Assembly (NCBI GenBank): GCA_010672825.2
Contig: JAAHFU020000004.1
Location: 310,001-374,000, forward strand
Direction: 5' to 3'
Source: Leptolyngbya sp. SIO1E4
Lineage (GTDB): Bacteria; Cyanobacteriota; Cyanobacteriia; Phormidesmidales; Phormidesmidaceae
Length of the DNA stretch: 64,000 nt
Below are positions 1,096 to 63,075 of the stretch, in pieces. A program made the position numbers and the translations under genes. The notes under the pieces are model-generated. The model worked only from the letters and a program-made list of their open reading frames with translations, was not told the origin of the DNA and made no database searches. How positions within the stretch are numbered: position 1 is the first letter of the stretch; every line of letters starts with the position of its first letter.

Positions 1096-1246
1096 GGTGG
1101 ACTCCTTATGGCGTCGGCGCAGAATTGGCGGATAGAAGCGAAATAAGAAGAGGCCCCCTAGAATGAGCCCCAGAACACTGATGAGAAAAAGGTCGAGACG
1201 GAGGTTCATAGACGGCAATCGTGCAGATTCGCTGATTTGTAGCTCT

Positions 1247-1343
1247 GTTCAGTTGAGTGCGGTACATCCGGCTGGGGTTTGGGGTTTGGGGTTTGGGGTC
1301 TGGGGTTTAGGGGCTGGGGTGTACGTTATTCAAATGCACGCTG
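1247..1343 (+). repeat. Dispersed G-rich repeat, family A, copy 1
   Basis: This copy starts GTTCAGTTGAGT and runs through several GGGGTTTGGGG units to GGGGTGTACGTTATTC and AAATGCACGCT. Similar blocks occur near 12960, 25391, 30046, 44099, 45401, 50286-50430, 59021 and 63251. This one has an expanded GGGGTTT tract. It is intergenic. Confidence 0.8.
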
Positions 1344-1398
1344 AATCAACATTTAGAAAATTGACCGTTCTTGAAGTCCCCCAGAATTGGGGGATTTA

Positions 1399-1513
1399 TA
1401 CCAGTTCTCATTTCTAAAGCGACAGATCAGGCCCCGCCCAGCCGCCCCTTGCCAAGGGGCGGTGCCGCAGGCGTTGGGGTGGCGATGTGTAGCGCTGATT
1501 TGGAGAATTGGTA
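1399..1513 (+). mobile_element. 115-bp MITE-like element, copy 1
   Basis: The element has terminal inverted repeats TACCAGTTCTC / GAGAATTGGTA and is flanked on both sides by TTA. It has no coding capacity. An element of the same 115-bp length and about 80% similar by eye lies at 49130-49244, and a deleted copy on the opposite strand lies at about 46446-46534. Removing this element with one TTA restores GGGGGATTTAGGGGGC, which is found uninterrupted at 46345-46360. An internal inverted repeat (CCGCCCCTTG / CAAGGGGCGG) could form a hairpin. Confidence 0.8.
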
Positions 1514-1592
1514 TTAGGGGGCGACGCAGAATCTAGCACTTTCATTCATTTCATTCCTCGATTCAGCAATACCAGGTCAAGGCTGAGGGTCG

Positions 1593-38137: not shown

Positions 38138-38244
38138 AGTTTCTTAACATAAACATCCCCAGGGATTAAGAATTGAACGCATTTCCGAAAACCCCAAAAC
38201 GGTGTTGGTTATGACAGAAAGACGATGCGCTAGCGGTGGTTGGG

Positions 38245-41200: not shown

Positions 41201-44046
41201 TTCGGGCAACCTTCTCTGACAGTGAGGCGCGATCGCCCACGGATACTCGCCTCTGGGTCACGGGGGATACCCCGGTCTACTGGGGGCGTCGCTACAACAA
41301 TGACCGTCTGGAAGTACAGCTCGATAAGGAGCGCTATGCCCCGGGTGAAACAGCAACAGCACTAATTCAGTCCCCCTATGAGGCTGGGGAATTGTACTTC
41401 GCCGTGGTGCGCAACAACACGTTGTACGAACAAGTTGTGCCGGTCAGTGGCGGGGCACCCCAGGTTCAATTCACGGTAACCCCTGAAATGCTCCCCAATG
41501 CCGCTGTGGAGGCGGTGCTGGTGCGTCAGGGAGACCCGGTAGAGACGTTAGAGCCAGGTAATTTAGAAGAACTGGTTGGGGTTGGCTTTGCCCCGTTTGA
41601 AGTTGACCTGGCCGATCGCTACCTCACCGCAGAGGTGACTCCGAGCCAAGCTGAACTTCCCCCCGCCACGGAGCAAACTGTGGAGCTGACCTTAAAGGAC
41701 AACCAGGGGCAGCCGATCCAGGGACAGTTCACGGTGATGGTGGTGGATGAGGCGGTGCTCCAGCTCAGCGGCCACCGACCGCCAGATCTAGTCGAGACGG
41801 TGTATGCCGAGCAAGCGATCGCGACGCGCTTTGCCGATAACCGCCGCAATGTGGTGCTGCAAAATCTCGTGTCTCCTTTGGCAAAAGGGTGGGGGTTTGG
41901 GGGCGGCTTTTCAGCCGGGGGCGAAAGCACCCGCATCCGCCAAGATTTTCAGGCATTGGCCTATTACAACGGTTCGGTGCTGACAAACGAGCAGGGAACG
42001 GCCCAGGTTAGCTTTACCCTGCCCGATAACCTCACCACCTGGCGGGTGATGGTGGTGGCAACGGACGGTAATTTACGCTTTGGCAACGGCGAGGCCACCT
42101 TTATCACCACACGACCGCTGATTACGGCCCCAGTACTGCCTCAGTTTGCGCGCCAGGGCGATCGCCTCATGGCTGGCGTGTCAGTGACCAGCACCCGCGA
42201 TCAGCGAGGCAGACTCAGGATTCAGGGGGACGTGGCGGAAGGGCTCACCTTTACGGAAGCCGAGGGCGATACTCAGACCCTCACCACCCGTTTCCGAGAA
42301 GGGACTCAGGTCTACCGGTTTCCAGTTGAGGTGACCGCAGCAGGAGAGGCCCAAGTCCGTTTCCAGGCCCAATTGGGAGACAACAGTGACGGTTTTCAAC
42401 TCCCCATACCCGTGGAGTCCTTGCAGATTACAGAGCAGGTGGTGACTGCAGGGACGACGCTGGAATCGCTGACCATTCCCCTCAATGTGGGAGAAGGCGT
42501 TGTGTCTGATGTCGGCGGACTGGACGTGTCGCTCTCCAGTACGCTGCTGGCAAATATCAAAGCGCCGGTACAGCAAATGGATTGGACAGACGCGTTGCCG
42601 AATTTATCCACGGCAGCAAGCCAGCTCACCATTGCCGCCAATTTACAGCTACTCAGTCAGCGGTACGGGCAGGTGCTAGACGGGTTCGATGCAGCAGCCC
42701 ATGCCAATGAAGCGATTCAGCGAATGCAGACGCTACGACGACCCGATGGCGGGCTGAGTGCCTGGCCCGGATCGGAGCAATCTGACCCGTTGGTGACCCC
42801 CTACGCCGCGATCGCGCTCGCAACGGCCCAATCCGCTGGATTCTCTGTGGATGGGGCAATGATCAGTCAGCTTCAAAGCTACCTATCGGCCATCCTGACC
42901 AATCCGGCACATGTGGATTGGTGTAAGTCCGATTCCTGTAAGCGTCAGGTGCGCCTGGAGTCTTTGCTGGCTCTGGCAGAACTCGGAGATGTCCGTCAAG
43001 ACTTTCTGACCGATTTGTACGAGCAGCGGGAAGCATTCGACACAGTCGGTCAACTCAAGCTCGCGCGGTATCTCTCCCGTTTTGACAACTGGCAGACAGA
43101 GGCCGATGCCCTGGCGAACCAAATTCAGGAAACGGTGTACGAAACGGCCCGGTCGGCAACGGTTAATTTGCCCACGGGTTGGCGCTGGTTTCACTCTCCA
43201 GTTGTGAATCAAGCGCAGAGTCTGGCGCTGTTTGTGGCGCGAAACAGCGATGCGGAACGGCTGGGACGGCTGGTGCAAGGACTGTTGGATTTGCGACGAG
43301 ACGGTGCCTGGCGAACGCCCTACGACAATGCTCAGGCCCTCAGCGCCCTGGTGGCATATGCTGGCTTGCTGCCGGAGCCGCCTAACTTTGAAGTGGCGGT
43401 GCAATTAGATGGCGAGTCGTTGGCGACTCAACAGTTCCAGGGCTACCAGCAACCTAATGTTGATCTTTCTGTGCCGATGGCAGATCTGCCTCAGGGGGAA
43501 TCGTCTCTGGTGCTGGATAAGTCTGCAGCGGGCATCTTGCACTACCTGACGACCTATCGCTACCGCCTTCAGGGCGATCCGCCAGGGCGATTACAGGGGC
43601 TACGGGTGACGCGCACGGTACGACCGGCCAATGGGGAGGAGGCACTGTATCAGATGGGGCTGAGTCCCATAGAAGATGCCCCGACCATGGACGTTGGGCA
43701 GGTCTTTGATGTGGGGCTAGAAATCATCACTGACCATCCAGTTCACCATGTCATCATCACCGATCCGCTACCGGCTGGATTGGAAACGGTAGATACCTCG
43801 TTCCAGACCAGTACGCCCTACTTCCAGCCGCAGCAGGATAGCTGGGAAATTGGCTATCAGCAGCTAGGGCGCGATCGCATCCGGGCCTATGCCAATAATT
43901 TCAACGCTGGGGTCTACAGCCTGCATTATTTAGTGCGGTCAGTAACGCCAGGAACCTTTCTCTGGCCAGGGGCTGAAGTACAGCTGGAGTACGCCCCAGA
44001 AGAATTTGGGCGATCAGCTGCAACCACACTGGAAATCCAAGAATAA
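38245..44046 (+). CDS. Alpha-2-macroglobulin family lipoprotein without thioester
   Basis: About 1933 residues. A basic start and hydrophobic core end in VSLATC, a near-lipobox, so it is probably a periplasmic or envelope lipoprotein. The bacterial macroglobulin layout is visible: N-terminal MG domains (from about residue 60), a GxxFSDRFLYQPGETARLTG region near 670 (MG3/MG4-like), PLITAPVLPQFARQGDR (A2M domain, about 1290), a helical domain (about 1430-1720) and C-terminal beta domain. The thioester CxEQ is absent: the position reads MDWTDALPNLSTAASQ. It thus resembles non-thioester members such as E. coli YfaS. Bacterial members trap proteases and often pair with PBP1C, encoded here at 25574. 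GTG 38236 is an alternative start. Confidence 0.92.
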   Translation: MFGVRRLRRLLMYGLMGLVLAVSLATCDRPESANQTEPSSELTPLAEVAELPDPELPEWIEEISPMGKANTLAQIRIRFTDPLVAVESLESPNRTDVLEKFEVFPEIPGQFRFLTPRMVGFQADRAIPKATRLRITLKSGLADLADHQLEEDLAWTFETEPIELTNLPGTERLLGSEENPMGLDPTLEFNANVPLDLSSLRQHLRLIPGGQATAEAQETSEEQAVPENQAEGVSVRVVEAVYDEDETDPSPQAQFGTAERPWKYHVTPEQPLEKGTRYFLAIAPGVRPAGGNLPTANSIDSQVMTYSSLAFKELELRESGGRFTNGWAQLNFNNGLMADSVDGQITVEPAPKEGMRLVRAYDNSSSVSINAWALEPNTTYTFTLGADLEDRFGQTLGEPVTAEYTTGDLNAEIWAPTGLNIFPASQDLQLNLSLVNLPDAAYRAAYKVVQPTELVNTDTAYPRSDRPSLLPDKGTWQSYPITAEKNELLDITVPLREQLGGTAGMLAYGVTARTTPYDDNGTQRWQNPEYYGLVQLTNLGVFAQWFPESGLVRVHHLSDGSVVSGSPVAIYRAYFDDETRPTGTPQPCATGTTDDTGTLRLASQALQTCMGGAESFGEPPELLVVAREGDDWAFVHTRFFSGDYGYGIYAGWNGAGPESRGTVFSDRFLYQPGETARLTGNAYYLQRGTLNQDANTAYTITVTDPEGTAIDLGTQTTNDFGTFSVSWDIPSDQPLGYYTIVAKAENGVELQGELRVAEFKLPNFQVDLTLDQDFAVAGESLETTVQSNYLFGAPVQGGDINYYVTREPTAIAPEGWDGFTFGPQWYWPEEKPTIPSDVLETSQTLGAQGQSELSVDIADDLPYPMTYRVDAEVVDVSNLSVADSKTVRVLPEDRVIGLKSDFVANAEQPFDVQVIVTDPEGQAQSGQSVQLVLERMEYSSVTEVIEGSATPNYQVEYEQVDDVSVRSGNEAQTVQLTAQEGGSYRIRATFSDSEARSPTDTRLWVTGDTPVYWGRRYNNDRLEVQLDKERYAPGETATALIQSPYEAGELYFAVVRNNTLYEQVVPVSGGAPQVQFTVTPEMLPNAAVEAVLVRQGDPVETLEPGNLEELVGVGFAPFEVDLADRYLTAEVTPSQAELPPATEQTVELTLKDNQGQPIQGQFTVMVVDEAVLQLSGHRPPDLVETVYAEQAIATRFADNRRNVVLQNLVSPLAKGWGFGGGFSAGGESTRIRQDFQALAYYNGSVLTNEQGTAQVSFTLPDNLTTWRVMVVATDGNLRFGNGEATFITTRPLITAPVLPQFARQGDRLMAGVSVTSTRDQRGRLRIQGDVAEGLTFTEAEGDTQTLTTRFREGTQVYRFPVEVTAAGEAQVRFQAQLGDNSDGFQLPIPVESLQITEQVVTAGTTLESLTIPLNVGEGVVSDVGGLDVSLSSTLLANIKAPVQQMDWTDALPNLSTAASQLTIAANLQLLSQRYGQVLDGFDAAAHANEAIQRMQTLRRPDGGLSAWPGSEQSDPLVTPYAAIALATAQSAGFSVDGAMISQLQSYLSAILTNPAHVDWCKSDSCKRQVRLESLLALAELGDVRQDFLTDLYEQREAFDTVGQLKLARYLSRFDNWQTEADALANQIQETVYETARSATVNLPTGWRWFHSPVVNQAQSLALFVARNSDAERLGRLVQGLLDLRRDGAWRTPYDNAQALSALVAYAGLLPEPPNFEVAVQLDGESLATQQFQGYQQPNVDLSVPMADLPQGESSLVLDKSAAGILHYLTTYRYRLQGDPPGRLQGLRVTRTVRPANGEEALYQMGLSPIEDAPTMDVGQVFDVGLEIITDHPVHHVIITDPLPAGLETVDTSFQTSTPYFQPQQDSWEIGYQQLGRDRIRAYANNFNAGVYSLHYLVRSVTPGTFLWPGAEVQLEYAPEEFGRSAATTLEIQE

Positions 44047-48512: not shown

Positions 48513-49046
48513 TTAGACCCACCAGGGTTGCTTACCTGTACGGGGGTCAGTTTCAGTCCACGGATAAATCCAGATAGCCTCCTCCTCAACGGCAACATGA
48601 ACGATTTTGAGGGGCAGGTTGGCTGGGCCTCGAACAACCACCCCGTCAGGGGTATAGCGTGACCCGTGACAGGGACATTGAAACTGTTGATCAAGGGGAT
48701 TCCAGGGGAACGTGCAGCCCAGGTGAGTACAGTTGTTGACAATGCCCATGGGGTTTAGGGTCCCTGCCTCTGTGACGGTTAAATAGGTAGGCTCACCCGC
48801 TAACCCTGCAATCAGAGCACGGGTGCCTGGGGGCTCAGCCAGAATTTGACTGGCCAGGATAGGGGTTCCCAGTTTGTCTTTAGCCAAAATGCCGCCGCTC
48901 TCGGTCACCTCCCGAGGGGGTACTAAAAACTTGGCGATGGGGTATAGGGCTGAACCCGCCGTTGCTGCAACCGTTGCCCCAGTCAGGAAATTCAGCAGTT
49001 GCCGCCGAGACAATGACGGATTTTCGTGGGAAATAATATGTTCCAC
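48513..49046 (-). CDS. petC: Cytochrome b6f-type Rieske iron-sulfur protein (PetC-like)
   Basis: 177 residues. An N-terminal SRRQLLNFLTGATVAATAGS is a twin-arginine-like signal anchor. The [2Fe-2S] site has both boxes, CTHLGC and CPCHGS. The protein normally passes electrons from plastoquinol to cytochrome f or plastocyanin. The start is GTG 49046, because a near-perfect GGAGGTGA lies eight bases upstream; TTG 49064 would place that site inside the gene. It is not next to petA, so it is probably one of the extra PetC paralogues (PetC2/PetC3-like) linked to stress. It heads a likely operon with the ArsA-type ATPase and Usp. Confidence 0.92.
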   Translation of the reverse strand: MEHIISHENPSLSRRQLLNFLTGATVAATAGSALYPIAKFLVPPREVTESGGILAKDKLGTPILASQILAEPPGTRALIAGLAGEPTYLTVTEAGTLNPMGIVNNCTHLGCTFPWNPLDQQFQCPCHGSRYTPDGVVVRGPANLPLKIVHVAVEEEAIWIYPWTETDPRTGKQPWWV

Positions 49047-49129
49047 GGCTGATTTCACCTCCAACCATTGTGGTGATTTTCAAAAGATAAAAAGCTTGAG
49101 GGGTGTTGGTGGAGAGATGGCAGGTGTTA

Positions 49130-49406: not shown

Positions 49407-49619
49407 CTAAGGGGTTTGATCAGTCTTGCAAGTGTTGATGCCGAACAAACCATATAGGGCGCAAGTGCCAAATAACCCCGTTAGGGCCAACACAGCCCCC
49501 ACAATGTCAAGACCCATCCCCAACCCTGAATTGGCGTAGGTGTTTAACCCTAGATAGAGCAATCCAACGGCTAGAAGTAAGCGGATCAATCGATCAATCA
49601 TGCCAACGTTGTTAAACAT
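49407..49619 (-). CDS. Small membrane protein, DUF2892 (YgaP-like transmembrane domain)
   Basis: 70 residues. Two transmembrane helices, LIRLLLAVGLLYLG and MGLDIVGAVLALTGLFG, followed by TCALYGLFGINTC. This is the typical DUF2892 pattern, in which the two late cysteines are conserved. In YgaP the domain anchors a rhodanese, so a link to sulfur or redox chemistry is suggested. ATG 49619 is chosen because GGAGG lies eight bases upstream; a longer frame to 49694 lacks this support. It lies 360 bp upstream of the petC-like gene on the same strand, with the MITE between. Confidence 0.85.
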   Translation of the reverse strand: MFNNVGMIDRLIRLLLAVGLLYLGLNTYANSGLGMGLDIVGAVLALTGLFGTCALYGLFGINTCKTDQTP

Positions 49620-50041
49620 GGATTTACCCTCCAAATACTGCATCAAAGTTGACGAAACATTTCTCACCACAACCCTCACAACCGTCACAGCCATTACAGT
49701 CAGCCATCAAATAGTTTGAACGCGAAGAAAATCAGCCTCTGGCGATGAGACCCTATCGCAGGATGCATTCGTAATGGGTATCAGAATTGGGGGGTAAGGG
49801 GGGCCAAATCATCCGTCTATTATGCAACGCCCAAAAGTGCTTCAAACTGGAATGAGAAGCGCTTCTGCTCGTTTCTGATAACCGCCTGTCTGTCTGGATA
49901 GCAGTCGTCAGCTCGATTAGAACAAGACTGCGAACCATTCTGATGCTGTGCTCAGCATCAGAGCAATACTCAGTGCCTTAATCAAAATGGCCAACGGTAT
50001 GGATAACGGTTCAGACTGTTTATTCTTATTTCATTAGATAA

Positions 50042-50630: not shown

Positions 50631-51077
50631 ATGATCACCAAATCCTATCGAGCAACCATCGATGATGATGACGATGATCAGCCATTTGATGATTTGGCGG
50701 AGCGCTTTAAGCTGCTGAGCGAGCCCAGTCGCTTGCGCATTCTCGCAATTCTCTGCAAAGACGAGCGCAACGTCACCGAAATCTGTACGTTAACTGGGTT
50801 AAAACAGGCCAATGTGTCAAAACACCTGCGGTTGCTCAGAGCAGCAGACATCGTTACCTGTCGTCGGGTGGGGATCTGTCGCTACTATCGCATCACCGAC
50901 AAAGATTTACTGGCGCTCTGCGCTCAACCTTTGGCTGCCATTGAAAACCTCCCCCCTTCACTGACTATGATTCAGAAAAGTATTTGTGATCAAAGGGCGA
51001 TCGCACCGCCTTCTAGGGATGCCCTTGATTGCCCTGATACCCATCTAGACTCCCGCGATCGCCTGAGTCCCATCTAA
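50631..51077 (+). CDS. ArsR/SmtB family transcriptional regulator
   Basis: 148 residues. An acidic N-terminal run (DDDDDD) is followed by a winged helix: FKLLSEPSRLRILAIL, then NVTEICTLTGLKQANVSKHLRLL as recognition helix and VGICRYYRI as wing. Cysteines lie at AILCKDE, TEICTL, VTCRRVGIC, LLALCAQ, and later CDQ and DCP. The classic metal motif ELCVCDL is replaced by TEICTLT, so the inducer could be a metal or a thiol/sulfide-type redox signal. It stands 68 bp upstream of the CRP-AAA+-ferredoxin gene and divergent from the DUF2892/Rieske/ArsA/Usp series, so it probably regulates one or both. Confidence 0.9.
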   Translation: MITKSYRATIDDDDDDQPFDDLAERFKLLSEPSRLRILAILCKDERNVTEICTLTGLKQANVSKHLRLLRAADIVTCRRVGICRYYRITDKDLLALCAQPLAAIENLPPSLTMIQKSICDQRAIAPPSRDALDCPDTHLDSRDRLSPI

Positions 51078-51145: not shown

Positions 51146-53845
51146 ATGACAGAGTTAGCGAGTGTATCTGCCCAGGTATCTGCAACGGTACCGCGTCCCC
51201 TGGGAAGTGAGCTATCGACGACTCAACCGTTGGATCAGCAGGCCGTTTCAGAGTGCTTAAACTGGCTGAGTTTCCATCGCGTCTGGGGGAAGTTAAATGA
51301 GGCGGTTCTGCAAGCGCTCAGCCACGCCCTGCAGTTGTTGCCTGTCGCACCCGAAGCTGAAATCTATCGAGAAGGGCAAACGGCCATTGGTCTCTATTTG
51401 GTGAAGTGGGGGTCGGTTGAAATCTACCACGCGTCGTCTGTGGGGAGGCTGCATATTCGCTATCACAGTGCCGGTGATTTGTTGGGGTATATCCCTCTGG
51501 TTGAGGCCTCAACGCAGGCAAAATATCAGGCAAGTGCGATCGCCCTAACCACCAGCGAGATTTGGTTTCTCCGGCAAGCTGACTTTGAGTACTTGCTGCA
51601 GACCTTTCCCGAGATGCAAAGCCTCATCAACCAGCTCCTGGCGCAAGACCTGATTCAGTTTGTCCGGCGCATCTCTCAAGAGCAAGTTCGGATTCAGGGG
51701 TTGCAGGCCTATATTCGCCCCGTGCCCCTGGAGGAACCCCTGATCCATTACAGTAAGGCGAGCCAGAAACTGGCTCGACAGATTGAAAGCGCAACTTCAG
51801 ACCTGGCGCCTATTGTGTTTCAGGCGGCACCGGGTACAGGTAAGACCTTTTTGGCTGGGTATATTCATCGCTACTCTGGTCTGCGTCATCGCCCCTTTGC
51901 CGAAATCGACTGTGCGCAACTGCCCCGCGATGAAGCAGGTGTGACGCAATCTGATCAACTGTTTGGCCGAGGAGAAGACAGGCCAGGGGTGATTGAACTG
52001 TTAGAACGGGGGACGTTGTTGATTGAGAATGCGCAGCTGCTCTCGTCTCGCGATCGCGATCGCTTAATTCGCTATGTGCAAACGGGAACCTTCACGCGAA
52101 ACCATGATGACCCCAATGGCGATATTCCCTTGCCTGCACAGTCCTCCCACCCTATCCCGGTAGAAGCCTGGGTCCGATTGATTTTCGCCAGACCTACAAA
52201 ACTTGCATTGCCAGACAGGCCGTTTCACGTCATCAAGCTATTTAATCTGACCCAACGGAAAGAAGATATTCCTTATTTTGCTCAATACTTCTTGCAGCAA
52301 TTTTGTCAGGAGCTGAGACGCCCACCTTTAACCCTGGATCAAACGGATCTGCGGCGCTTGATTGGGTATCCTTACCCGGGTAACCTCAGCGAATTGGCCA
52401 GTATTCTCAAGCGGGCCACCCTGATGACGCCAGTTGGCCAACCTACCATCTCGGAGCAGGTGCTTTGGTCAGTGCAGTCAGAGAAAAATGCCTTTCGCCT
52501 CGATCTGTTAGATCAACTGCCCTGGTTACGCCAGGTTCTCCTGAGTCAATGGTGGCCAGAACGGGTCTGGTTGCTGATGATGGCAATTTTTGTCCCGGTG
52601 ACGGTGATCGGGCTCATCGGGCCACAGTCTCGGGACAGCAGCCTCACCCTAAATCTCTTTTGGGCCTGGTGGTGGCCTTTTTATCTGCTTCTGTTTGCAT
52701 TTGTCGGTCGCCTTTGGTGTGCGGTGTGCCCGTTTATGATCACGGGCGAATGGGTTCGCAAACTCTCTCTTTGGATCTGGCCTCGTAAGCTACAGCCCTG
52801 GCCCCTCAAGTGGCTAAACCGTTGGGGTGGGTGGGTTTTATTTGCTGGTTTTGTGACGATTTATTTGTGGGAACACCTTTGGGATTTGCCCCACACGGCT
52901 TATCTCTCAGCCTGGTTGCTGATCACCATTGCGGCGGGGGCGGTGATCGGTAGCCTAATTTACGAGCGGCGTCTCTGGTGTCGCTATTTGTGCCCGATTG
53001 GGGGTATGAATGGCATGTTTGCCAAGCTATCCATGGTAGAAGTGCGCTCTACTCAACAGGTCTGCGGGAGCCAGTGCAGTACCTTTGGCTGCTACAAGGG
53101 AAGTGGGGCAACCCCAGTCACCTTTGCTCAGGCTCTACCCACTGAAGGTCAAGCAACCTCTGGCTGTCCCCTTTACTCTCATCCTGCCCAGCTGCAGGAT
53201 AATCGAGATTGTGTCTTGTGTATGACGTGCCTCAAAGCCTGTCCGCATCGGTCGGTGCAGGTAAATTTGCGATTTCCAGCCTCGGATTTACTCGAAAATC
53301 ATCAGAAATCTTGGGCTGAGGCGGCCCTGCTGCTCCTTTTATTTGGGGGCGTGTTCATGCACCACGACCACCAAATTTTAAGCTGGCTGGGATACCCCCA
53401 TCTGCCGGTTGATGCCGCGCACCTCTGGATCGGGATACCGATTGTCGCCATGCTTTTGAGCATTCCAGGCGTGCTCACCTACCTGGCTCATGCGATCGCC
53501 AGGCTCATCGACCAAGAGATGCCGGATTATCTCTCCGTGGTTTATGCTTATCTGCCCTTTGCCCTGGCAGCCAACCTGGCTCATTACATCCCAGCTGCCA
53601 TCACGGAAGCCGGTCAGATTTTGCCCGTCGCAGCCCGCACGCTCGGCTATAGCGGCGCGGGTTTACCCACCCTGACCTGGAGTCTGGATGTCGCCCATTT
53701 CCTGCAGGGGGTGACCCTGCTTTCAGCCTGGGCATTCAGCGTTTATCCCCTGTTGCGGATTACCCAACGCCCCTGGCTGAGTAATTTACCCCACCTCTGC
53801 TTAATGGCAGGTTTAACCGTGCTGTGTTTCTATTTGCTGATCTAA
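51146..53845 (+). CDS. CRP-like/AAA+ fused to membrane polyferredoxin (NapH/NosR-like)
   Basis: 899 residues, ATG 51146 with GAGGG seven bases upstream. Domains in order: cyclic-nucleotide-binding CRP-like domain (about 40-175); AAA+ domain like those of sigma-54 activators (about 205-440) with Walker A APGTGKTF and YPYPGNLSEL; then six or more transmembrane helices with iron-sulfur motifs (about 465-899): LWCAVCPF, CRYLCPIGGMNG, CGSQCSTFGC and CVLCMTCLKACPH. The Walker B region reads TLLIENAQ, lacking the usual Asp-Glu, and the GAFTGA loop is absent (LFGRGEDRPG). No DNA-binding domain is seen. Cyanobacteria lack sigma-54, so it is not a normal activator. A membrane redox sensor or electron-transfer protein gated by a small ligand is a reasonable guess. 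Confidence 0.88.
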   Translation: MTELASVSAQVSATVPRPLGSELSTTQPLDQQAVSECLNWLSFHRVWGKLNEAVLQALSHALQLLPVAPEAEIYREGQTAIGLYLVKWGSVEIYHASSVGRLHIRYHSAGDLLGYIPLVEASTQAKYQASAIALTTSEIWFLRQADFEYLLQTFPEMQSLINQLLAQDLIQFVRRISQEQVRIQGLQAYIRPVPLEEPLIHYSKASQKLARQIESATSDLAPIVFQAAPGTGKTFLAGYIHRYSGLRHRPFAEIDCAQLPRDEAGVTQSDQLFGRGEDRPGVIELLERGTLLIENAQLLSSRDRDRLIRYVQTGTFTRNHDDPNGDIPLPAQSSHPIPVEAWVRLIFARPTKLALPDRPFHVIKLFNLTQRKEDIPYFAQYFLQQFCQELRRPPLTLDQTDLRRLIGYPYPGNLSELASILKRATLMTPVGQPTISEQVLWSVQSEKNAFRLDLLDQLPWLRQVLLSQWWPERVWLLMMAIFVPVTVIGLIGPQSRDSSLTLNLFWAWWWPFYLLLFAFVGRLWCAVCPFMITGEWVRKLSLWIWPRKLQPWPLKWLNRWGGWVLFAGFVTIYLWEHLWDLPHTAYLSAWLLITIAAGAVIGSLIYERRLWCRYLCPIGGMNGMFAKLSMVEVRSTQQVCGSQCSTFGCYKGSGATPVTFAQALPTEGQATSGCPLYSHPAQLQDNRDCVLCMTCLKACPHRSVQVNLRFPASDLLENHQKSWAEAALLLLLFGGVFMHHDHQILSWLGYPHLPVDAAHLWIGIPIVAMLLSIPGVLTYLAHAIARLIDQEMPDYLSVVYAYLPFALAANLAHYIPAAITEAGQILPVAARTLGYSGAGLPTLTWSLDVAHFLQGVTLLSAWAFSVYPLLRITQRPWLSNLPHLCLMAGLTVLCFYLLI

Positions 53846-54259: not shown

Positions 54260-55204
54260 ATGGCTATCTACGATACGATCACCGAGGTCATTGGCCGCAC
54301 CCCACTGGTTCGGTTACAGCGGCTTCCCAAGCAGTTTGGATGTGTCGCTGAGATTGCGCTGAAGCTAGAAGGCATGAACCCAGCTTCCTCGGTCAAAGAT
54401 CGCATTGCCGCTAGCATGATCGAAGAAGCAGAACAGGCAGGTCTGATCCAACCCGGTTTATCCACGCTGATAGAAGCCACCTCAGGCAATACCGGAATTG
54501 GGCTGGCAATGGTTTGTGCGGCTAAAGGCTATCGCTTGATTCTGACCATGCCAGAAAACATGAGCCAAGAACGGCAGCAGATTGTGCGGGCCTATGGAGC
54601 GGAGGTGGTGTTAACCCCCGCTGAAGCTGATATGGCGGGGGCGATCGCCCGGGCAAATGAACTGCTAGCCAGCCTACCCAATGCATTTTCACCCCAGCAG
54701 TTTAGTAATCCTGCGAATCCTAAAATTCACTATGAAACCACTGGCCCAGAACTCTGGAAAGATACGGCAGGGCAAATGGATGTTCTGGTTGTGGGGGTAG
54801 GCACTGGCGGCACTCTAACGGGGGCAGGGCGGTATCTTAAACAGCAAAAACCCTCCCTCAAAATCGTTGCGGTTGAACCCTCTAGCAGTGCAGTGTTAAG
54901 CGGCCAGCCCGCCGGATTACATAATCTCCAGGGGCTGGGTGCTGGCTTTATTCCAGACGTCCTCCGGGTAGATTTGATCGATGAGATTATGACCGTTAAG
55001 GATGAGCAGGCCTACGAGCTGAGTCGTCAGCTGGCTCAATCAGAAGGGATTTTAAGCGGCATTTCTACCGGGGCGGCCCTTTATGCTGCTTTACAAGTGG
55101 CCAAACGGGTGGAGCATACAGGGCAAACGGTGGTCGCTGTGCAACCCAGCGCGGGGGAACGTTACCTGAGCACGCCGATGTGGCAAAAACCCATAACGGT
55201 TTGA
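54260..55204 (+). CDS. cysK: Cysteine synthase A (O-acetylserine sulfhydrylase)
   Basis: 314 residues. PLP enzyme making cysteine from O-acetylserine and sulfide. The PLP lysine is in NPASSVKDRIA, the substrate loop in EATSGNTGIGLA, and the phosphate-binding loop in GVGTGGTLTGAGRYL; GISTGAA completes the site. Length and motifs are standard for CysK. It lies 414 bp downstream of the CRP-AAA+-ferredoxin gene on the same strand, with hairpins between, so it probably has its own promoter. Its presence supports a sulfur- or thiol-related theme for this region, though cysK genes are often found in several copies and the link may be chance. Confidence 0.95.
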   Translation: MAIYDTITEVIGRTPLVRLQRLPKQFGCVAEIALKLEGMNPASSVKDRIAASMIEEAEQAGLIQPGLSTLIEATSGNTGIGLAMVCAAKGYRLILTMPENMSQERQQIVRAYGAEVVLTPAEADMAGAIARANELLASLPNAFSPQQFSNPANPKIHYETTGPELWKDTAGQMDVLVVGVGTGGTLTGAGRYLKQQKPSLKIVAVEPSSSAVLSGQPAGLHNLQGLGAGFIPDVLRVDLIDEIMTVKDEQAYELSRQLAQSEGILSGISTGAALYAALQVAKRVEHTGQTVVAVQPSAGERYLSTPMWQKPITV

Positions 55205-57841: not shown

Positions 57842-58372
57842 CTAATTATTGGGACTTGCTTGGCTTTTCACTGAACTGGGTCTTCTCCCCCAGGGCTTGA
57901 GTACCGAGATGCTAATGATAACCACAAGAAAAAGAACTTGAACTAATGTCCCAATTAAAACCCCTTGAGCATCGAACAAGTAAACACGATTACTGAATGC
58001 CTGCAACCCCTCGTGCATAGAAATATCCTCTGCGACATTTCCCCAGGGAAATAGCCAGAAAGTCCCAAATATGACCAGGCCAGTTGTCAAAACCCACTTT
58101 GAGATCACCCAGTAGAATTTGGTAAACCCGTAGTTCGTTGTCCAGCAAAGCAGCGTTGCTGTTAACACCGAGCCGATCGCTGAGGGAATCACAACAAAAT
58201 CATCGAGCAGGGTAATGGCTGAGTTAAGCGCATAAAGCGCTTCTGCATTTGCAGCTTTCATGTTTCGCAGTGATAACAGAAACATGCTTAAGACGGTTCC
58301 AGTCCAAAGAGCTGCAAACCCAACGTGAGCGGATAGCAACCAGTTTTTCTGCTGAATACTTAACTTCGGCAT
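57842..58372 (-). CDS. Four-helix membrane protein (DUF2269-like)
   Basis: 176 residues from ATG 58372, with GGAG six bases upstream; TTG 58384 is the alternative. Four hydrophobic segments (about 10-30, 48-72, 80-105, 135-158). A conserved-looking His in LLSAHVGFAALWTG opens the first helix, as in heme-containing or DUF2269 proteins. Exact function is unknown. It lies in the same direction as the MarR-type regulator, but a hairpin separates them, so it may be a separate transcript. Confidence 0.7.
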   Translation of the reverse strand: MPKLSIQQKNWLLSAHVGFAALWTGTVLSMFLLSLRNMKAANAEALYALNSAITLLDDFVVIPSAIGSVLTATLLCWTTNYGFTKFYWVISKWVLTTGLVIFGTFWLFPWGNVAEDISMHEGLQAFSNRVYLFDAQGVLIGTLVQVLFLVVIISISVLKPWGRRPSSVKSQASPNN

Positions 58373-58515: not shown

Positions 58516-58983
58516 TTAGAGCATGTTGTGGACGATTTGATCTAATAGCTTCGAAAGCCTTTCCTGCTCTGCCTTTGACATGCCTGTGGTGGCGCGCTCA
58601 ATCGTCTCTGCGCCAATAGGGGGAAGGGTTCGCATCAACTGTTTGCCTTCATCCGTTAGCCAGATACGAACAACACGGCGATCGCTCGGATCACGCTCTC
58701 GATAGACAAGGGTGCGACCTTCCATGCGATCGACGACTCCAGTGAGGGTTGCCCCAAGCTGTTTGAGCTTGTCGGCAATTCCAGAGGTTGATAGTCCATC
58801 CTCTTCCCATAAACAACATAGGACGAGGTAATGGAATGGCGTGAGCCCATAGGGCTCTAGTCGCTCTAAAAAATCTCGATACATTAATTGGGATACGAGT
58901 TTGACTTTATACCCGATGTTGTAAGGCGCGAGGGCGTGATGCCATTGCTGAAGAAATTCAGCGGTTGATGATGAGTCAGGCAT
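58516..58983 (-). CDS. MarR family regulator, probable ChlR-like activator
   Basis: 155 residues from ATG 58983; TTG 59004 is the alternative. MarR winged helix: LTPFHYLVLCCLWEEDGLSTS, LKQLGATLTGVVDRMEGRTL (recognition helix) and the wing ERDPSDRRVVRIWLTDEGK. A Cys-Cys pair (LVLCCLW) lies in the second helix and could be an oxygen or redox sensor. In Synechocystis, the MarR-type protein ChlR activates the low-oxygen set chlA(II), ho2 and hemN. Here the regulator sits next to exactly those three genes, which strongly suggests the same role. It is 289 bp from the acsF stop on the same strand. Confidence 0.88.
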   Translation of the reverse strand: MPDSSSTAEFLQQWHHALAPYNIGYKVKLVSQLMYRDFLERLEPYGLTPFHYLVLCCLWEEDGLSTSGIADKLKQLGATLTGVVDRMEGRTLVYRERDPSDRRVVRIWLTDEGKQLMRTLPPIGAETIERATTGMSKAEQERLSKLLDQIVHNML

Positions 58984-59020
58984 TGTAGTGCAAACTTTTC
59001 CCAAGCCAAACAGTTAATAC

Positions 59021-59095
59021 GTTTGAGTCTAGTACAGCTTGGCCAAGACAGGGGCTAGCGTTTGGAGGTTAGGGGGCGATTGATCCAAATGTAAC
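59021..59095 (+). repeat. G-rich repeat, family A, diverged copy
   Basis: GTTTGAGTCTAGTACAGCTT, GGCCAAGACAGGGGCTAGCG, then TTGGAGGTTAGGGGGCGATTG and ATCCAAATGTAACC. It lies just upstream of the MarR gene and may include its promoter. Confidence 0.7.
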
Positions 59096-59170
59096 CTGCG
59101 ATAACTCCAGATTTCTAGGGAGTGATACCGCAGATTTGAGAGGGGGTGCTAGTTCTTTTTATCCGTTGCT

Positions 59171-59211
59171 TTTGCTAGATAACACCCCATATAAGCGTGT
59201 TATCTAGCAAA
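59171..59211. terminator. Long hairpin downstream of acsF
   Basis: TTTGCTAGATAACAC and GTGTTATCTAGCAAA form a perfect 15-bp stem with an 11-base loop, 61 bp beyond the acsF stop. It probably separates acsF from the MarR gene. Confidence 0.6.
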
Positions 59212-59272
59212 GCCTAAGACACCTCCAATATGGCTGCGATCCTCTGCCATCTCAAGGCAAACTTGCCTTCAA

Positions 59273-60343
59273 CTACCGCACAGTTTCGCGGATCGCTTCG
59301 GCATCAATGGGTTTAATCAAATACAGCCGGAGCAGGTCGCCGACAATGCCCGCCACTAGTGGCACCTTCCGTAAGGTTTTCCAGATCTTAGTGCCTGCTC
59401 CCTCCGCAATTTCCTTCAGCTTGAGGTTGCGATCAGCACAGCGATCTAAGCGCTTGAAGAATTCTGGGTGATCCACATCCAGAATGACCGGAAACGCCCG
59501 AGCGGAGGTGTCATTGGTTTGGCGAATCACTTCCGCATCAAACTCGGTCGCATCTAGGCCCAGCATCTCGTAGAATTTGGCCCGTTCATGGACGGTTAAG
59601 CTGTGGGTGGCAAAGACCGATAGCAAAAAGAAGCGGCTCCAGAGGCGAGACTGCCAGGTTTTCCACATTTGGGGCTGCGATCGCAGCAGGGCCTTAAAAA
59701 TATCGCCATGGCGATTTTCATCCTGACACCAACTCTCAAAATAGTTAAACAGCGGATAAAAACTGTGTTCAGGGTGCTGCTCTAAGTGGCGATAAATCAA
59801 GATATAGCGCCAATAGCCAATTTTCTCCGAAAGATAGACGGCATAGATAATCCACTCCACGGGAAAAAACGTGTAAGTGCGCTTTTTCGTGAGCTTTGCG
59901 AGATCTAGCGTCACATCAAAATCAGCCATGGCCTTATTGAGAAAGCCCGCATGACGAGCCTCATCCCGCGCCATCAGAGAAAACATTTCCGCCAGGATGG
60001 GGCTGCGCTGCTTGAGGCGACGCGACAGTTCCTTGAACAACAAAAAGCCTGAAAACTCCGACACACAAGAGCGCTCAAGATAATCGACAAAGGCCTGTCG
60101 CTCTTCTCCTTGAATGGTGTTCCAGGCTTGCTGGAATAAATCATCGCGCACAAAATGATGGCGATTATAATCAGCCCGCATTTCTGCCAGCATCGCCTCA
60201 AGATCTGCCTTGCCTGCTGACAGGTCTAAACTAGCCGCCCGCTCAAAGTCAGTCGTGTAAAAACGCGGAGTCAATAGATTTTCTTCAACCGCAGACTTTG
60301 ACCTCGACGGTGCTTTTCCTGACGATGGCACAGTGCTGACCAT
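59273..60343 (-). CDS. acsF: Mg-protoporphyrin IX monomethyl ester oxidative cyclase
   Basis: 356 residues. Diiron enzyme that closes the fifth (isocyclic) ring of chlorophyll using oxygen. Diiron ligands: SLMARDEARHAGFLNKA and CQDENRHGDIFKAL (both ExxH) plus upstream Glu residues. ATG 60343 is chosen because GGAGG lies five bases upstream, giving the normal family length; ATG 60391 has no ribosome site. Cyanobacteria often carry two versions; this one is likely the low-oxygen form (ChlA-II) because it stands with ho2 and hemN. Unlike in Synechocystis, where the three form one operon, here acsF is divergent from ho2-hemN across a 481-bp shared region. Confidence 0.95.
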   Translation of the reverse strand: MVSTVPSSGKAPSRSKSAVEENLLTPRFYTTDFERAASLDLSAGKADLEAMLAEMRADYNRHHFVRDDLFQQAWNTIQGEERQAFVDYLERSCVSEFSGFLLFKELSRRLKQRSPILAEMFSLMARDEARHAGFLNKAMADFDVTLDLAKLTKKRTYTFFPVEWIIYAVYLSEKIGYWRYILIYRHLEQHPEHSFYPLFNYFESWCQDENRHGDIFKALLRSQPQMWKTWQSRLWSRFFLLSVFATHSLTVHERAKFYEMLGLDATEFDAEVIRQTNDTSARAFPVILDVDHPEFFKRLDRCADRNLKLKEIAEGAGTKIWKTLRKVPLVAGIVGDLLRLYLIKPIDAEAIRETVR

Positions 60344-60433
60344 AGAGTCCTCCAATTCAAAGCATTCTTTAATAGCTAAAGAGTTATCCATTAAGAATAC
60401 GGCAAATCACTGTAGGCACAATCGAGGTTACAA

Positions 60434-60472
60434 TTTTTGACGGTCTGGCAGTGGGGTACCCTGCGTCAAAAA
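60434..60472. promoter_or_regulatory. Inverted repeat in the acsF-ho2 divergent region
   Basis: TTTTTGACG ... CGTCAAAAA, perfect 9-bp arms with a 21-base spacer, 91 bp upstream of the acsF start. A candidate binding site for the MarR-type regulator; no site consensus was available to compare. Confidence 0.4.
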
Positions 60473-60585
60473 CCTTACTAAGCAGCACTTTAACGCTTTA
60501 TCAGGATGCAGGAGCCGTTCCATTGCGTATCCTTGCTCCCCTTGAAAAAACGTGAAGTTTTGAAACTACGAATAAAGTGAATCGC

Positions 60586-60607
60586 TTAATCGCTATATGG
60601 TGATTAA
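60586..60607. promoter_or_regulatory. TTAATC-N10-GATTAA dyad in the acsF-ho2 region
   Basis: A 6-bp dyad nested in a wider AATCGC / GCGATT pair, midway between the divergent genes. It has the size expected of a MarR-type operator, but this is inference. Confidence 0.35.
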
Positions 60608-60824
60608 AGTGCGATTTACGACTGCTGCATCAGTGTTAGCCCCTGGCCTTGGGCTGTCGCTTTTATTTCCTCTCCGGTGCCTAACGCTCAAGTTACCCTC
60701 CTCTCGAGGGTCGCACTTCAAGCCCTGTGGGGCACTTGCCTAAGCAGTCGCTTTCTCTGTTTCAGACTCTCCTCTCAAAATTGTTTTTGCTTGCACATCA
60801 AGTGATCTATCGAGGTGATTTACA

Positions 60825-61577
60825 ATGACTCACGATTTAGCTATGCGTCTGCGAGAAGGGACCAAACAGTCTCATACCCTGGCGGAAAATACGGCCTTTA
60901 TGAAATGCTTTCTGAAGGGCATCGTTGAGAAAGAGCCATTTCGCAAGTTGACCGCAGACCTCTACTACGTCTACCGCACCTTAGAGGGCGAGATGAAACG
61001 TCATCGCGATCATCCCGTTGTTGGCCCGATGATCTTCCCTGAGCTGGAGCGCACTCAAAAGTTAGAAGAAGACCTGGCCTTTTACTACGGTGACAACTGG
61101 CGCAATGAAATTGCTGCCTCGCCGGAAGGTGAGAAATATGTGACCCGCCTCCGCGAAATCAGCAGCACTCACCCAGCCCTACTGGTTGCCCACGCCTATG
61201 TTCGCTACATGGGAGATCTCTCTGGGGGGCAAAGTTTGCGCAACATTACGCGCTCAGCTCTAGATCTGCCGCCCGATAAGGGGACTGGACTGCATGAATT
61301 TGATCAGCTCCCCACGGTTGAGACCAGACGCGCCTTTAAGATGCTCTACCGAGATGCCCTGAACTCCCTGCCGGTAGATGCAGAGACGATTGAAGCGATT
61401 GTGGTGGAGGCGAATGAGGTATTTGCGCTCAACCGCAATGTCTTCCATGAGCTGGAGCCAGACGTGAGAGCTGCGATCGGAGAGCACGTTTTTGACTTGA
61501 TCACGCGTCAAGATAAACCGGGCAGTACAGAACGCGCACCGGGCAATACGGCTGTCGAACTGGTTGCGGCTGAGTAA
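60825..61577 (+). CDS. ho2: Heme oxygenase (low-oxygen type)
   Basis: 250 residues, ATG 60825 with GAGGTG seven bases upstream. Opens heme to biliverdin, CO and iron, the first step of phycobilin synthesis. The proximal heme His is in REGTKQSHTLAENT, and the distal helix has YVRYMGDLSGGQSLRN. Ho1 and Ho2 cannot be told apart safely by eye; the neighbours acsF, hemN and a ChlR-like regulator make the low-oxygen form likely. A perfect hairpin follows before hemN, 98 bp downstream, so hemN may be expressed by partial read-through. Confidence 0.93.
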   Translation: MTHDLAMRLREGTKQSHTLAENTAFMKCFLKGIVEKEPFRKLTADLYYVYRTLEGEMKRHRDHPVVGPMIFPELERTQKLEEDLAFYYGDNWRNEIAASPEGEKYVTRLREISSTHPALLVAHAYVRYMGDLSGGQSLRNITRSALDLPPDKGTGLHEFDQLPTVETRRAFKMLYRDALNSLPVDAETIEAIVVEANEVFALNRNVFHELEPDVRAAIGEHVFDLITRQDKPGSTERAPGNTAVELVAAE

Positions 61578-61589
61578 TTAAAACATTTT

Positions 61590-61618
61590 GTCGGGGCATC
61601 GCATTGCGATGCCCCGAC
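61590..61618 (+). other. Perfect 29-base palindromic hairpin between ho2 and hemN
   Basis: GTCGGGGCATCGCA, one base, then TGCGATGCCCCGAC: a 14-bp stem, 12 bp after the ho2 stop. It is preceded by ACATTTT rather than followed by a U-run. It could end most ho2 transcripts, protect the mRNA end, or be a protein site. Confidence 0.7.
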
Positions 61619-61674
61619 TGCAAACGCCTCATGACAATTCTGGTTTCACGCCAGTCTCCATTCGCCATTGCTCT

Positions 61675-63075
61675 ATGAACACCCTGACGCTAACCCCGAC
61701 CTTTGATTCAGCGTTGTTGAAAAAATACAACCAGCCGTTGCCCCGCTACACCAGTTATCCCCCCGCGACTGAATTACGAGAAGGGTTTGGGAAAGCTGAC
61801 TTTGAAACCGCGATCGCCGTGGGCAATTACAAAAAAACGCCGCTCTCTCTTTATTGCCACATTCCCTTTTGCGAGGCTGCGTGTTACTTCTGCGGCTGCA
61901 ACACCATCATTACCCAACACAAGGCGGTTGCAGAGCCTTACCTCAAGTATCTGATCAACAACATTGAACAGGTGGCGGCCCTCAGCGATCGCCGCCGGGT
62001 TGTCAACCAGATGCATTGGGGGGGAGGTACCCCCAACTATTTGAACCTGGATCAAGTGGATCGGTTGTGGACAGCCCTGTCTCAGCATTTCCAATTTGCT
62101 GACGATGCCGAAATCTCCATTGAAGTCAACCCCCGCCAGTTGGATCGCAACTATGTGCTGGGGCTCCGGCAGATTGGCTTTAACCGTATCAGCTTTGGCA
62201 TTCAAGACTTTAACCCCCGGGTGCAAGCCGCCATCAATCGCATTCAACCCGAGGAAATGTTGTTTCAGGGTATGGCCTGGATGCGGGAGGCTGGCTTTGA
62301 GAGCATCAACGTGGATCTGATCTATGGTTTGCCCTATCAGACCGAGGTCACCTTCCGGGATACCATCCGCAAAGCGATCGCCCTGGACCCCGACCGCATT
62401 GCCCTCTTCAATTTTGCCTATGTGCCCTGGATGAAGCCTGTCCAGAAGAAGCACATCGATCCCACGCAGTTACCCTCCCCGGCAGAGAAGCTCAACATTT
62501 TTCATCTCAGCATTGATGAACTCACTGCCAATGGGTACCAGTTCATTGGCATGGATCACTTTGCCAAGCCAGATGATGAGCTGACCCTGGCCCAGCAGGC
62601 CGGGCAACTGCATCGCAACTTCCAGGGATATACCACCAAACCAGAGTCCGACCTCCTCGCCTTTGGCATGACCTCTATCAGCATGCTGCACGATGTCTAT
62701 GTGCAAAACCACAAGCGGCTCAGAGACTTTTATAAAGCGATGGATGCCCATCGGCTACCCATCGAACGTGGGGTTATTCTCAGCCGGGATGATGTGTTGC
62801 GGCGAGCCGTGATCATGGAATTGATGTGCCAATTTGAGCTGTCTAAGGCGGCTATTGAGTCTAAGTATCATCTCAGCTTTGATCAAGACTTTGATGAATA
62901 TTTTGCTCAAGAGCGACAAGACCTGAAAGCGTTAGAGGCCGATGGCTTGGTGCGCCTGACCCCCAACCACATTGAAGTCACCTCTGCCGGGCGATTACTC
63001 ATTCGCAACATTGCAGCGGTGTTTGATACCTACCTGCGCCATAAGCGAAACCGCCAGTTTTCTCAGTCGGTTTAA
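61675..63075 (+). CDS. hemN: Oxygen-independent coproporphyrinogen III dehydrogenase
   Basis: 466 residues. Radical SAM enzyme that decarboxylates coproporphyrinogen III without oxygen, feeding heme and chlorophyll synthesis under low oxygen. The cluster motif is CHIPFCEAACYFCGC, SAM motif HWGGGTPNY, followed by EVNPRQLDRNYV and FNRISFGIQDFNPRVQ. It is HemN proper rather than HemW: the C-terminal MELMCQFELSK region and full length are present. ATG 61675 is used; a frame to 61588 would run through the hairpin. It is the second plus-strand gene of the low-oxygen locus and is followed by a terminator. Confidence 0.95.
   Translation: MNTLTLTPTFDSALLKKYNQPLPRYTSYPPATELREGFGKADFETAIAVGNYKKTPLSLYCHIPFCEAACYFCGCNTIITQHKAVAEPYLKYLINNIEQVAALSDRRRVVNQMHWGGGTPNYLNLDQVDRLWTALSQHFQFADDAEISIEVNPRQLDRNYVLGLRQIGFNRISFGIQDFNPRVQAAINRIQPEEMLFQGMAWMREAGFESINVDLIYGLPYQTEVTFRDTIRKAIALDPDRIALFNFAYVPWMKPVQKKHIDPTQLPSPAEKLNIFHLSIDELTANGYQFIGMDHFAKPDDELTLAQQAGQLHRNFQGYTTKPESDLLAFGMTSISMLHDVYVQNHKRLRDFYKAMDAHRLPIERGVILSRDDVLRRAVIMELMCQFELSKAAIESKYHLSFDQDFDEYFAQERQDLKALEADGLVRLTPNHIEVTSAGRLLIRNIAAVFDTYLRHKRNRQFSQSV

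Follow-up and report, generated by a model that had tools for sequence, protein, structure and literature searches.

A fusion protein in Leptolyngbya sp. SIO1E4

In the cyanobacterium Leptolyngbya sp. SIO1E4, we analysed a stretch of 64,000 nucleotides (contig JAAHFU020000004.1, positions 310,001 to 374,000; we will call this stretch the window). At 51146..53845 on its forward strand, a gene encodes a fusion of a CRP-like domain, an AAA+ domain, and a polyferredoxin-type membrane protein. The gene is a single uninterrupted open reading frame from ATG to stop, with no internal stops, and its product has 899 amino acids. We will refer to it as the fusion gene. A preliminary description of the window had proposed this architecture, with four groups of cysteines in the membrane part, and the open reading frame, the Pfam domains, and the 12 invariant cysteines described below bear it out.

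All of the protein's parts are encoded on the forward strand. The CRP-like domain (residues 67-153; 51344..51604) matches PF00027 (cNMP_binding) with 53.4 bits, above the cut-off of 27.5. The AAA+ core (residues 200-318; 51743..52099) is of the sigma-54-activator type and matches PF00158 (Sigma54_activat; 43.4 bits, cut-off 20.2). It is followed by an AAA+ lid (residues 370-440; 52253..52465) that matches AAA_lid_14 (48.3 bits, cut-off 27). In the membrane part, the best stretch for PF12801 (Fer4_5) is at residues 589-628 (32.9 bits, cut-off 22), and a match to Fer4 at residues 686-701 is under its cut-off. Among the 10 Pfam families that match the protein at E = 0.1, there is no helix-turn-helix or other DNA-binding family; nor do the Pfam matches include a kinase or other output domain, or a catalytic domain.

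The cysteines, as identified from alignments, fall into four groups: C525 and C528 (CAVCP; 52718..52729), C612 and C616 (CRYLCP; 52979..52993), C640, C644, C649, and C674 (53063..53167), and C689, C692, C695, and C699, which form a ferredoxin-type CxxCxxCxxxCP motif (53210..53242). The protein ends with a bundle of five long helices (residues 723-898; 53312..53839), which is apparent in the predicted structure; within the bundle, Y800, E821, and G823 are invariant in both of the main alignments described below (A1 and A3).

The AlphaFold model of the whole protein, which was built with 69 sequences, has a mean predicted local distance difference test score (pLDDT) of 82 and a predicted template modelling score (pTM) of 0.56, so the individual domains are credible but their mutual arrangement is not. 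The membrane part of the model contains nine long helices (residues 469-491, 500-517, 554-578, 585-605, 723-739, 757-788, 795-832, 847-873, and 878-898), which would cross the membrane. If the helices do cross the membrane and the AAA+ half is cytosolic, then all four cysteine groups would lie on the cytosolic side.

A family of proteins across the Cyanobacteria

To see how widespread the fusion protein is, we searched 386 genomes sampled from the phylum, and we found homologs in 103 of them (E = 1e-30). In the family that the window's genome belongs to, homologs are present in 57 of 63 genomes. A scan of species genomes gave at least 521 confirmed relatives. We examined the best 80 of these, all of which are from cyanobacteria as judged by the titles of their records.

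The homologs form three groups. Clade A includes the protein from the window; its members are 57-72% identical to that protein (among the best 80 relatives). Clade A is accessory: by manual count, it is present in 11 of the 386 genomes from the phylum and in 12 of the 63 genomes from the window's family, with a fragment in a thirteenth. Clade B is common, with about 36-41% identity to the window's protein, and includes a second copy (a paralog) in the window's own genome. Clade C (33-35% identity) comprises relatives from small genomes, which we take to be picocyanobacteria. When we built a tree from the membrane part, clade C had full support (100/100), clade A lay on one side of a branch with support of only 84/79, and clade B was not resolved. 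Intact clade A genes are found in a single-contig genome, in a complete chromosome, and in a complete plasmid. Two clade B genes from draft genomes of the window's family (L175 and L176) are apparently broken by frame shifts. We also considered if there is a natural two-gene version of the protein, but the split copies in two genomes (G436 and G425) resemble frame shifts in draft genomes, so we make no claim for it.

Conservation was examined with two main alignments. The first (A1) has 40 rows from all three clades and leaves out the homolog from locus L042. The second (A3) has 69 rows: of the best 80 homologs, 12 were outside the range of 780-1000 amino acids and were left out, and the other 68 were combined with the window's protein. 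(Another alignment omits the homolog from L029, in which a stop follows after 290 amino acids.)

The literature search, which covered few subscription journals, found no description of the fusion. It is apparently an undescribed family of cyanobacterial membrane proteins that spans the phylum.

Motifs of the AAA+ and CRP-like domains

Among the 50 structural matches listed for the whole model, Foldseek found only activator-type AAA+ domains. The AAA+ fold search gave matches to 1ny5, 1ny6, and PspF. The AAA+ domain has retained its fold, but its motifs indicate that it is disarmed. Alignments to NtrC4 and to DmpR both show that the GAFTGA loop is absent from the fusion protein. In the alignment to NtrC4, the GAFTGA site holds DQLFGR; alternatively, if LFGR is aligned to the LFGH that precedes the GAFTGA loop, then about eight residues are deleted.

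The Walker A motif of the window's protein (QAAPGTGKTF; 51821..51850) is typical of clade A: the GK is conserved in all 51 rows from that clade and the T in 50 of them. In clade B, the motif is G-E-P-G-x-x-K-D in 18 of 18 rows, and the T/S is replaced by D in clade C as well. In the Walker B motif (TLLIENAQ; 52013..52036), the position of the catalytic Glu, which is the second of the acidic pair, is Asn (EN in the window's protein). Asn occupies this position in 48 of the 51 rows from clade A and in all 18 from clade B. Most clade A and clade B proteins have also replaced the sensor II Arg: the window's protein has S there, in the stretch GNLSEL, and R is found in 3 of the 18 rows from clade B. 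The altered Walker B motif and the missing GAFTGA loop had both been noticed in the preliminary description.

In AAA+ domains, an intact Walker A motif together with the loss of the Walker B Glu and the sensor II Arg is the pattern expected of a protein that binds ATP without hydrolysing it. Binding of ATP without hydrolysis is therefore probable for clade A proteins. The pattern in clades B and C suggests weak or no nucleotide binding.

The CRP-like domain had been described as ligand-sensing. The position that corresponds to E72 of CRP holds D or E in 50 of the 51 rows from clade A. At the position of the phosphate-binding Arg82, however, all 51 rows have Y or H, so the binding of cyclic nucleotides is not supported. 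(Both positions were assigned by eye.) Furthermore, the CRP domain is missing from all 10 of the clade C proteins that we examined, which have 24-73 residues in its place, and from single members of clade A (L041) and clade B (L072).

No match to sigma-54 in the window's genome

We found no match to sigma-54 (PF04552) in the window's genome at E = 0.001; as a control, the same search gave matches in 4 of 14 genomes. Across the 386 genomes from the phylum, PF04552 was over its cut-off in two, one clearly and one barely. The clear match (G125:C1:411956-412339; 62 bits) is to the DNA-binding domain of sigma-54. The phylum is thought to lack sigma-54, and this match may be due to contamination.

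Since the window's genome lacks RpoN, and since neither a GAFTGA motif nor a DNA-binding domain was found in the fusion protein, it is not a standard activator, as the preliminary description had argued. The accessible text of a survey of sigma-54 systems (PMC3162934) reports neither sigma-54 nor its activators in 29 cyanobacteria. Candidates in that survey were filtered by the presence of GAFTGA, a step that this family would not have passed.

The iron-sulfur membrane module

All 12 cysteines are invariant in both alignments (40 of 40 rows in A1 and 69 of 69 rows in A3). As judged from the motifs, 12 cysteines could accommodate as many as three [4Fe-4S] clusters. When we compared the membrane part alone to NCBIfam, the best listed model was NapH (TIGR02163; 36.1 bits, E = 4.8e-9), with a score far below the cut-off of 213.05. 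The NosR model gave 20.6 bits, with a cut-off of 1000. Homologs of the membrane part that stand alone, without CRP or AAA+ domains, are found in Deinococcus ficus and in haloarchaea (22-29% identity); these are annotated as "4Fe-4S binding protein". A VIA structure comparison of the membrane part was uninformative: Z scores were up to 6.1 and were scattered over unrelated helical proteins.

Because the 12 cysteines are invariant while the CRP domain and the Walker A motif have been lost or changed in some lineages, we consider the iron-sulfur membrane module to be the conserved core of the protein. This pattern of conservation suggests that the front half regulates or scaffolds that core.

The gene neighborhood distinguishes clade A from clade B

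We compared 24 marker proteins to the regions around 59 clade A loci (848 kb) and 40 clade B loci (712 kb, which is more DNA per locus). The clade B loci, which serve as a control, comprise 21 of the best 80 loci and 19 from other genomes; two genomes contribute two loci each, and L072 was excluded. Counts are from the direct comparison of the markers, as clusters of proteins from single linkage were mixed (for instance, a 17-locus set that contained a persulfide-dioxygenase-like protein).

The strongest difference was for cysteine synthase, which is encoded near 35 of 59 clade A genes but near just 1 of 40 clade B genes (P = 1.3e-9, Fisher exact test). Rhodanese (15/59 versus 0/40, P = 0.0003) and PetC, the Rieske subunit of cytochrome b6f (11/59 versus 0/40, P = 0.003), are also associated with clade A. 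Another five markers were each found near 7 of 59 clade A genes and near none of the 40 clade B genes (P = 0.04): persulfide-dioxygenase-like, PsbA, nitronate-monooxygenase-like, CydA-like, and NifX-like proteins. Overall, 28 of the 59 clade A loci have a marker other than cysteine synthase and histidine kinase (manual count). Given that some of the loci are near-copies of each other and that these P values are uncorrected for the 24 tests, only the association with cysteine synthase is convincing by itself, and perhaps those with rhodanese and PetC.

Some of these labels should be read loosely. The persulfide-dioxygenase-like label is based on a metallo-beta-lactamase match and a match to a bifunctional sulfur transferase/dioxygenase that is below the cut-off. 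The labels for SQR-like (sulfide:quinone oxidoreductase) and CydA-like proteins are likewise from matches below NCBIfam cut-offs, and the nitronate-monooxygenase-like and NifX-like labels are from the names in plasmid records and our own reading.

The linked cysteine synthase is on the same strand as the fusion gene in all 35 loci. It lies within 500 nucleotides downstream in 31 of these, and within 150 nucleotides in 26; in another locus (L086), it lies upstream instead, at a distance of 10 kb. A comparison and a tree could use 32 of the linked synthases, as the others were too short. The linked synthases elsewhere (32) are 70-85% identical to the one in the window, as compared to 60%, 58%, and 38-40% for the other three copies in the window's genome. 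The tree did not support a single clade of linked synthases, as just 4% of 200 bootstrap trees grouped them. Upstream of the clade A genes, perfect palindromes with arms of at least 7 were present in few loci, and none was shared.

Genes around the fusion gene in the window and on plasmids

In the window, an ArsR/SmtB family regulator (50631..51077, + strand; Pfam and NCBIfam matches) is encoded 68 nucleotides upstream of the fusion gene, and a cysteine synthase (54260..55204, + strand; profile match) is encoded 414 nucleotides downstream. On the same side as the ArsR-type gene are PetC (48513..49064, - strand; NF045928, 287.6 bits, cut-off 250), a YgaP-like or DUF2892-type membrane protein (49407..49694, - strand; profile match), and ArsA. 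On the same side as the synthase are AcsF, the Mg-protoporphyrin monomethyl ester cyclase (59273..60391, - strand; TIGR02029, 529 bits, cut-off 192.5), heme oxygenase (60825..61577, + strand), and the oxygen-independent coproporphyrinogen oxidase HemN (61588..63075, + strand; TIGR00538, 702 bits, cut-off 325). We considered if the ArsR-type gene might encode a sulfide sensor, but it scored 43.8 bits against the model for the sulfur-sensing BigR, with a cut-off of 155, so we did not apply that label.

AcsF, heme oxygenase, and HemN, together with a MarR-type regulator (58516..59004, - strand), make up a low-oxygen tetrapyrrole cluster at 58516-63075 that resembles loci controlled by ChlR. The identification of the MarR-type protein as ChlR was not borne out. 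A 14-base palindrome at 58038-58051, which is not at the fusion gene, is a perfect match to the ChlR motif with 3-base spacing (motif from the accessible text of PMC5295598 and PMC13421787). Matches in the window with at most one mismatch were near chance (20 versus 12.9 expected, and 12 versus 12.7 expected). The window also contains two very long open reading frames, at 1593-12827 (- strand; 3,744 amino acids) and at 38236-44046 (+ strand; 1,936 amino acids).

The gene order in Acaryochloris sp. IP29b_bin.176 is much like that in the window: the fusion gene is followed by genes for cysteine synthase, an ArsR-type regulator, a pentapeptide-like protein (identified by eye), AcsF (on the opposite strand), heme oxygenase, and HemN. 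Two of the islands are on plasmids. In Aulosira laxa NIES-50, the fusion gene is on plasmid2 (conjugative according to its typing), along with a cysteine synthase 17 nucleotides on, petC_2, and a psbA; these last two are mobile photosynthesis genes. Plasmid pPg_03 of Pseudanabaena galeata carries the fusion gene along with cysK, DsrE, rhodanese, petC, psbA, an SQR-like oxidoreductase, and ArsR. These plasmids show that the island is mobile at times. At two other loci (L081, at 1109-3978, from Cyanothece sp. BG0011, and L110), HdrB-like and HdrC-like genes are near an SQR-like gene and the fusion gene, and L081 has an HdrA-like gene as well; all of these Hdr-like matches are below NCBIfam cut-offs.

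Clade A is thus a partly mobile companion of cysteine synthase and of genes for sulfide or low-oxygen conditions. Four points go beyond the preliminary description: the family's spread across the phylum, the second family member in the window's genome, the link to cysteine synthase, and the setting among genes for sulfide or low-oxygen conditions.

A proposed role in electron transfer

We propose that the fusion protein is a membrane iron-sulfur electron-transfer protein that resembles NapH or NosR, that its cytosolic front half regulates or scaffolds it, and that clade A acts in sulfide or low-oxygen life. We give this proposal, which is based on sequence analysis, a probability of roughly 55%. 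Three [4Fe-4S] clusters would lie on the cytosolic side, and electrons would pass between a cytosolic carrier and either the quinones or the opposite face of the membrane. The AAA+ domain of clade A proteins would bind ATP without hydrolysis and would thereby gate or assemble the complex. The clade A protein may serve in the handling of sulfide or persulfide under low oxygen, alongside the cysteine synthase that is often encoded just downstream.

Several observations weigh against this proposal. No solved structure is clearly like the membrane part, either by sequence or by Foldseek (no match under E = 0.001), and the model has pLDDT below 50 at residues 637-689, where five of the 12 cysteines that we expect to be cluster ligands are found. 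The sensor II Arg is retained in 9 of 10 clade C proteins. In the window, the 414 nucleotides before the synthase make co-transcription unsure, and a search of the window's genome for SQR gave no match at E = 1e-20. Near the clade A genes, SQR-like (5 versus 0 loci in clade B, P = 0.08) and TauE (6 versus 0, P = 0.08) are not significant singly; nor are heme oxygenase and HemN (4 versus 0 for each, P = 0.15), nor AcsF. ArsR-type genes are about equally common near both clades (7/59 versus 3/40, P = 0.74). The cysteine synthase is missing from 24 of 59 clade A loci, and 16 of 59 have none of the 24 markers. Some of these 16 are on short contigs, but they also include four 18-kb loci (L095, L100, L101, and L103).

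A genome-level link to sulfide oxidation does not hold up either. SQR does co-occur with the family (29 of 40 genomes with SQR, 10.7 expected), but so does hydrogenase, which we chose as an unrelated function (64 of 110 genomes, 29.4 expected, including 11 of 11 genomes with clade A). (The 110 hydrogenase genomes were entered by hand, with weak matches omitted; among the 386 genomes, 118 had matches over the cut-off and 131 had matches at E = 0.001.) Among the genomes with homologs, SQR is present in 5 of 11 with clade A and in 24 of 92 others (P = 0.28). The co-occurrence with SQR and hydrogenase may only reflect larger genomes. Because it is unspecific, we used only the local gene neighborhood as evidence.

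As another explanation, the protein might be a membrane redox sensor, whose clusters would respond to how reduced the quinone or ferredoxin pool is and whose CRP-AAA+ half would signal to a partner protein instead of to DNA. The N-terminal domains are of signalling types, no catalytic domain was found, and in the window an ArsR-type regulator is encoded just upstream. Also, given the history of NosR (PMC5928378), both roles have been proposed for such proteins. But the sensor half is the less conserved half: the CRP domain is missing from all 10 clade C proteins examined, and the Walker A motif is changed in clades B and C. The evidence leans towards electron transfer, since none of the 12 cysteines varies among the 40 rows of A1, whereas clade C has lost the CRP domain and clades B and C have lost the T/S of Walker A. 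In addition, no helix-turn-helix, kinase, or other output domain is listed for the protein, and 12 invariant cysteines and nine long helices seem to us to be excessive for a sensor. We view a sensor as possible but unlikely. A factor for assembly or maturation, which would move electrons or sulfur to build PetC-type Rieske proteins, photosystem II, or other iron-sulfur proteins under low oxygen, would explain why PetC and PsbA are encoded near some clade A genes and near no clade B genes, and AAA+ proteins often act in assembly. Yet with the Walker B Glu gone, remodelling driven by ATP is not expected, and the most common neighbor is cysteine synthase, which is not an assembly gene. This makes an assembly factor improbable.

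We think it very improbable that these proteins are atypical activators of transcription. Two plasmid records do name them as a "nitrogen assimilation regulatory protein" (plasmid2 of A. laxa) or a "sigma 54-interacting transcriptional regulator", and homologs without GAFTGA that use sigma-70 do exist (TyrR, DhaR, and HupR, according to the accessible text of PMC3162934). However, besides the survey's finding of no sigma-54 or activators in 29 cyanobacteria, the fusion protein has membrane helices and no listed DNA-binding domain, and its genome lacks RpoN. The names that call these proteins regulators are probably misleading in organisms without sigma-54. As for a spurious union of two genes through misassembly or a frame shift, which the preliminary description had raised, broken or split copies do occur in some draft genomes; but such an artefact is refuted by the homologs in 103 of 386 genomes and by the intact copies in the single-contig genome, the complete chromosome, and the complete plasmid.

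Returning to electron transfer, a more specific version of our proposal is that the clade A protein is a transmembrane conduit for electrons, gated by ATP and a ligand, between the plastoquinone or ferredoxin pools and sulfane sulfur. It would operate in sulfidic or oxygen-poor light, and the sulfide would be delivered to, or drained into, the linked cysteine synthase. We consider this version to be improbable. To our knowledge, there is no earlier case of a disarmed sigma-54-activator ATPase that gates an electron-transfer protein.

If an electron-transfer role is correct, then a widespread membrane redox protein of cyanobacteria has been overlooked, and one mobile subfamily of it is tied to sulfide and anoxia. 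This would bear on anoxygenic photosynthesis in cyanobacteria and on the reuse of an ATPase from transcription. The fusion protein and its cysteine synthase are a gene pair that could be tested directly in culturable strains; Nodosilinea nodulosa PCC 7104 and Leptolyngbya sp. PCC 6406, for instance, are among the carriers.

Comparison to known systems

Like activators from the NtrC family, the fusion protein has an AAA+ core and lid that are over the Pfam cut-offs and that match by fold; unlike them, it lacks GAFTGA, has an altered Walker B motif, has no listed DNA-binding domain, and is from a genome without RpoN. Similarly, it shares the cNMP_binding domain with CRP and FNR, but it has no listed helix-turn-helix, and the position of the phosphate-binding Arg is not Arg in any of the 51 clade A rows.

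The membrane part resembles NapH and MauN in having paired CxnCP motifs and then further cysteine groups for [4Fe-4S] clusters within a membrane protein. It differs from them in its C-terminal helical bundle and its CRP-AAA+ front, and the score against the NapH model is far below the cut-off. NosR and NirI (and RdhC) are also membrane iron-sulfur proteins with a large extra domain. In the fusion protein, the extra domain is CRP-AAA+ instead, and no N-terminal FMN (flavin mononucleotide) domain was found by Pfam at E = 0.1. According to the accessible text of PMC5928378, NosR was first called a regulator and is now thought to participate in electron transfer.

For the gene neighborhood, the closest parallels are the sqr/arsR/petC2/psbA islands of Geitlerinema and of deep-branching metagenome-assembled genomes, and the low-oxygen clusters of Acaryochloris. 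The accessible text of the papers on these (PMC5061849, PMC11304991, and PMC5295598) mentions neither the fusion gene nor the adjacent cysteine synthase, and the accessible text of a 2026 review of redox signalling in cyanobacteria (PMC13421787) has no match to the terms "cyclic nucleotide" or "AAA". But many of the neighbors are shared: arsR, petC2, a variant psbA, rhodanese, tauE, and acsF with the genes for heme oxygenase and HemN. The available parts of those papers describe psbA and arsR near sqr (PMC5061849); sqr clusters with arsR, petC2, and tauE, in which the petC2 beside sqr is induced at low oxygen (PMC11304991); and, in Acaryochloris marina, the strong induction under microoxic conditions of the genes for psbA1, petC, acsF, heme oxygenase, and hemN (PMC5295598).

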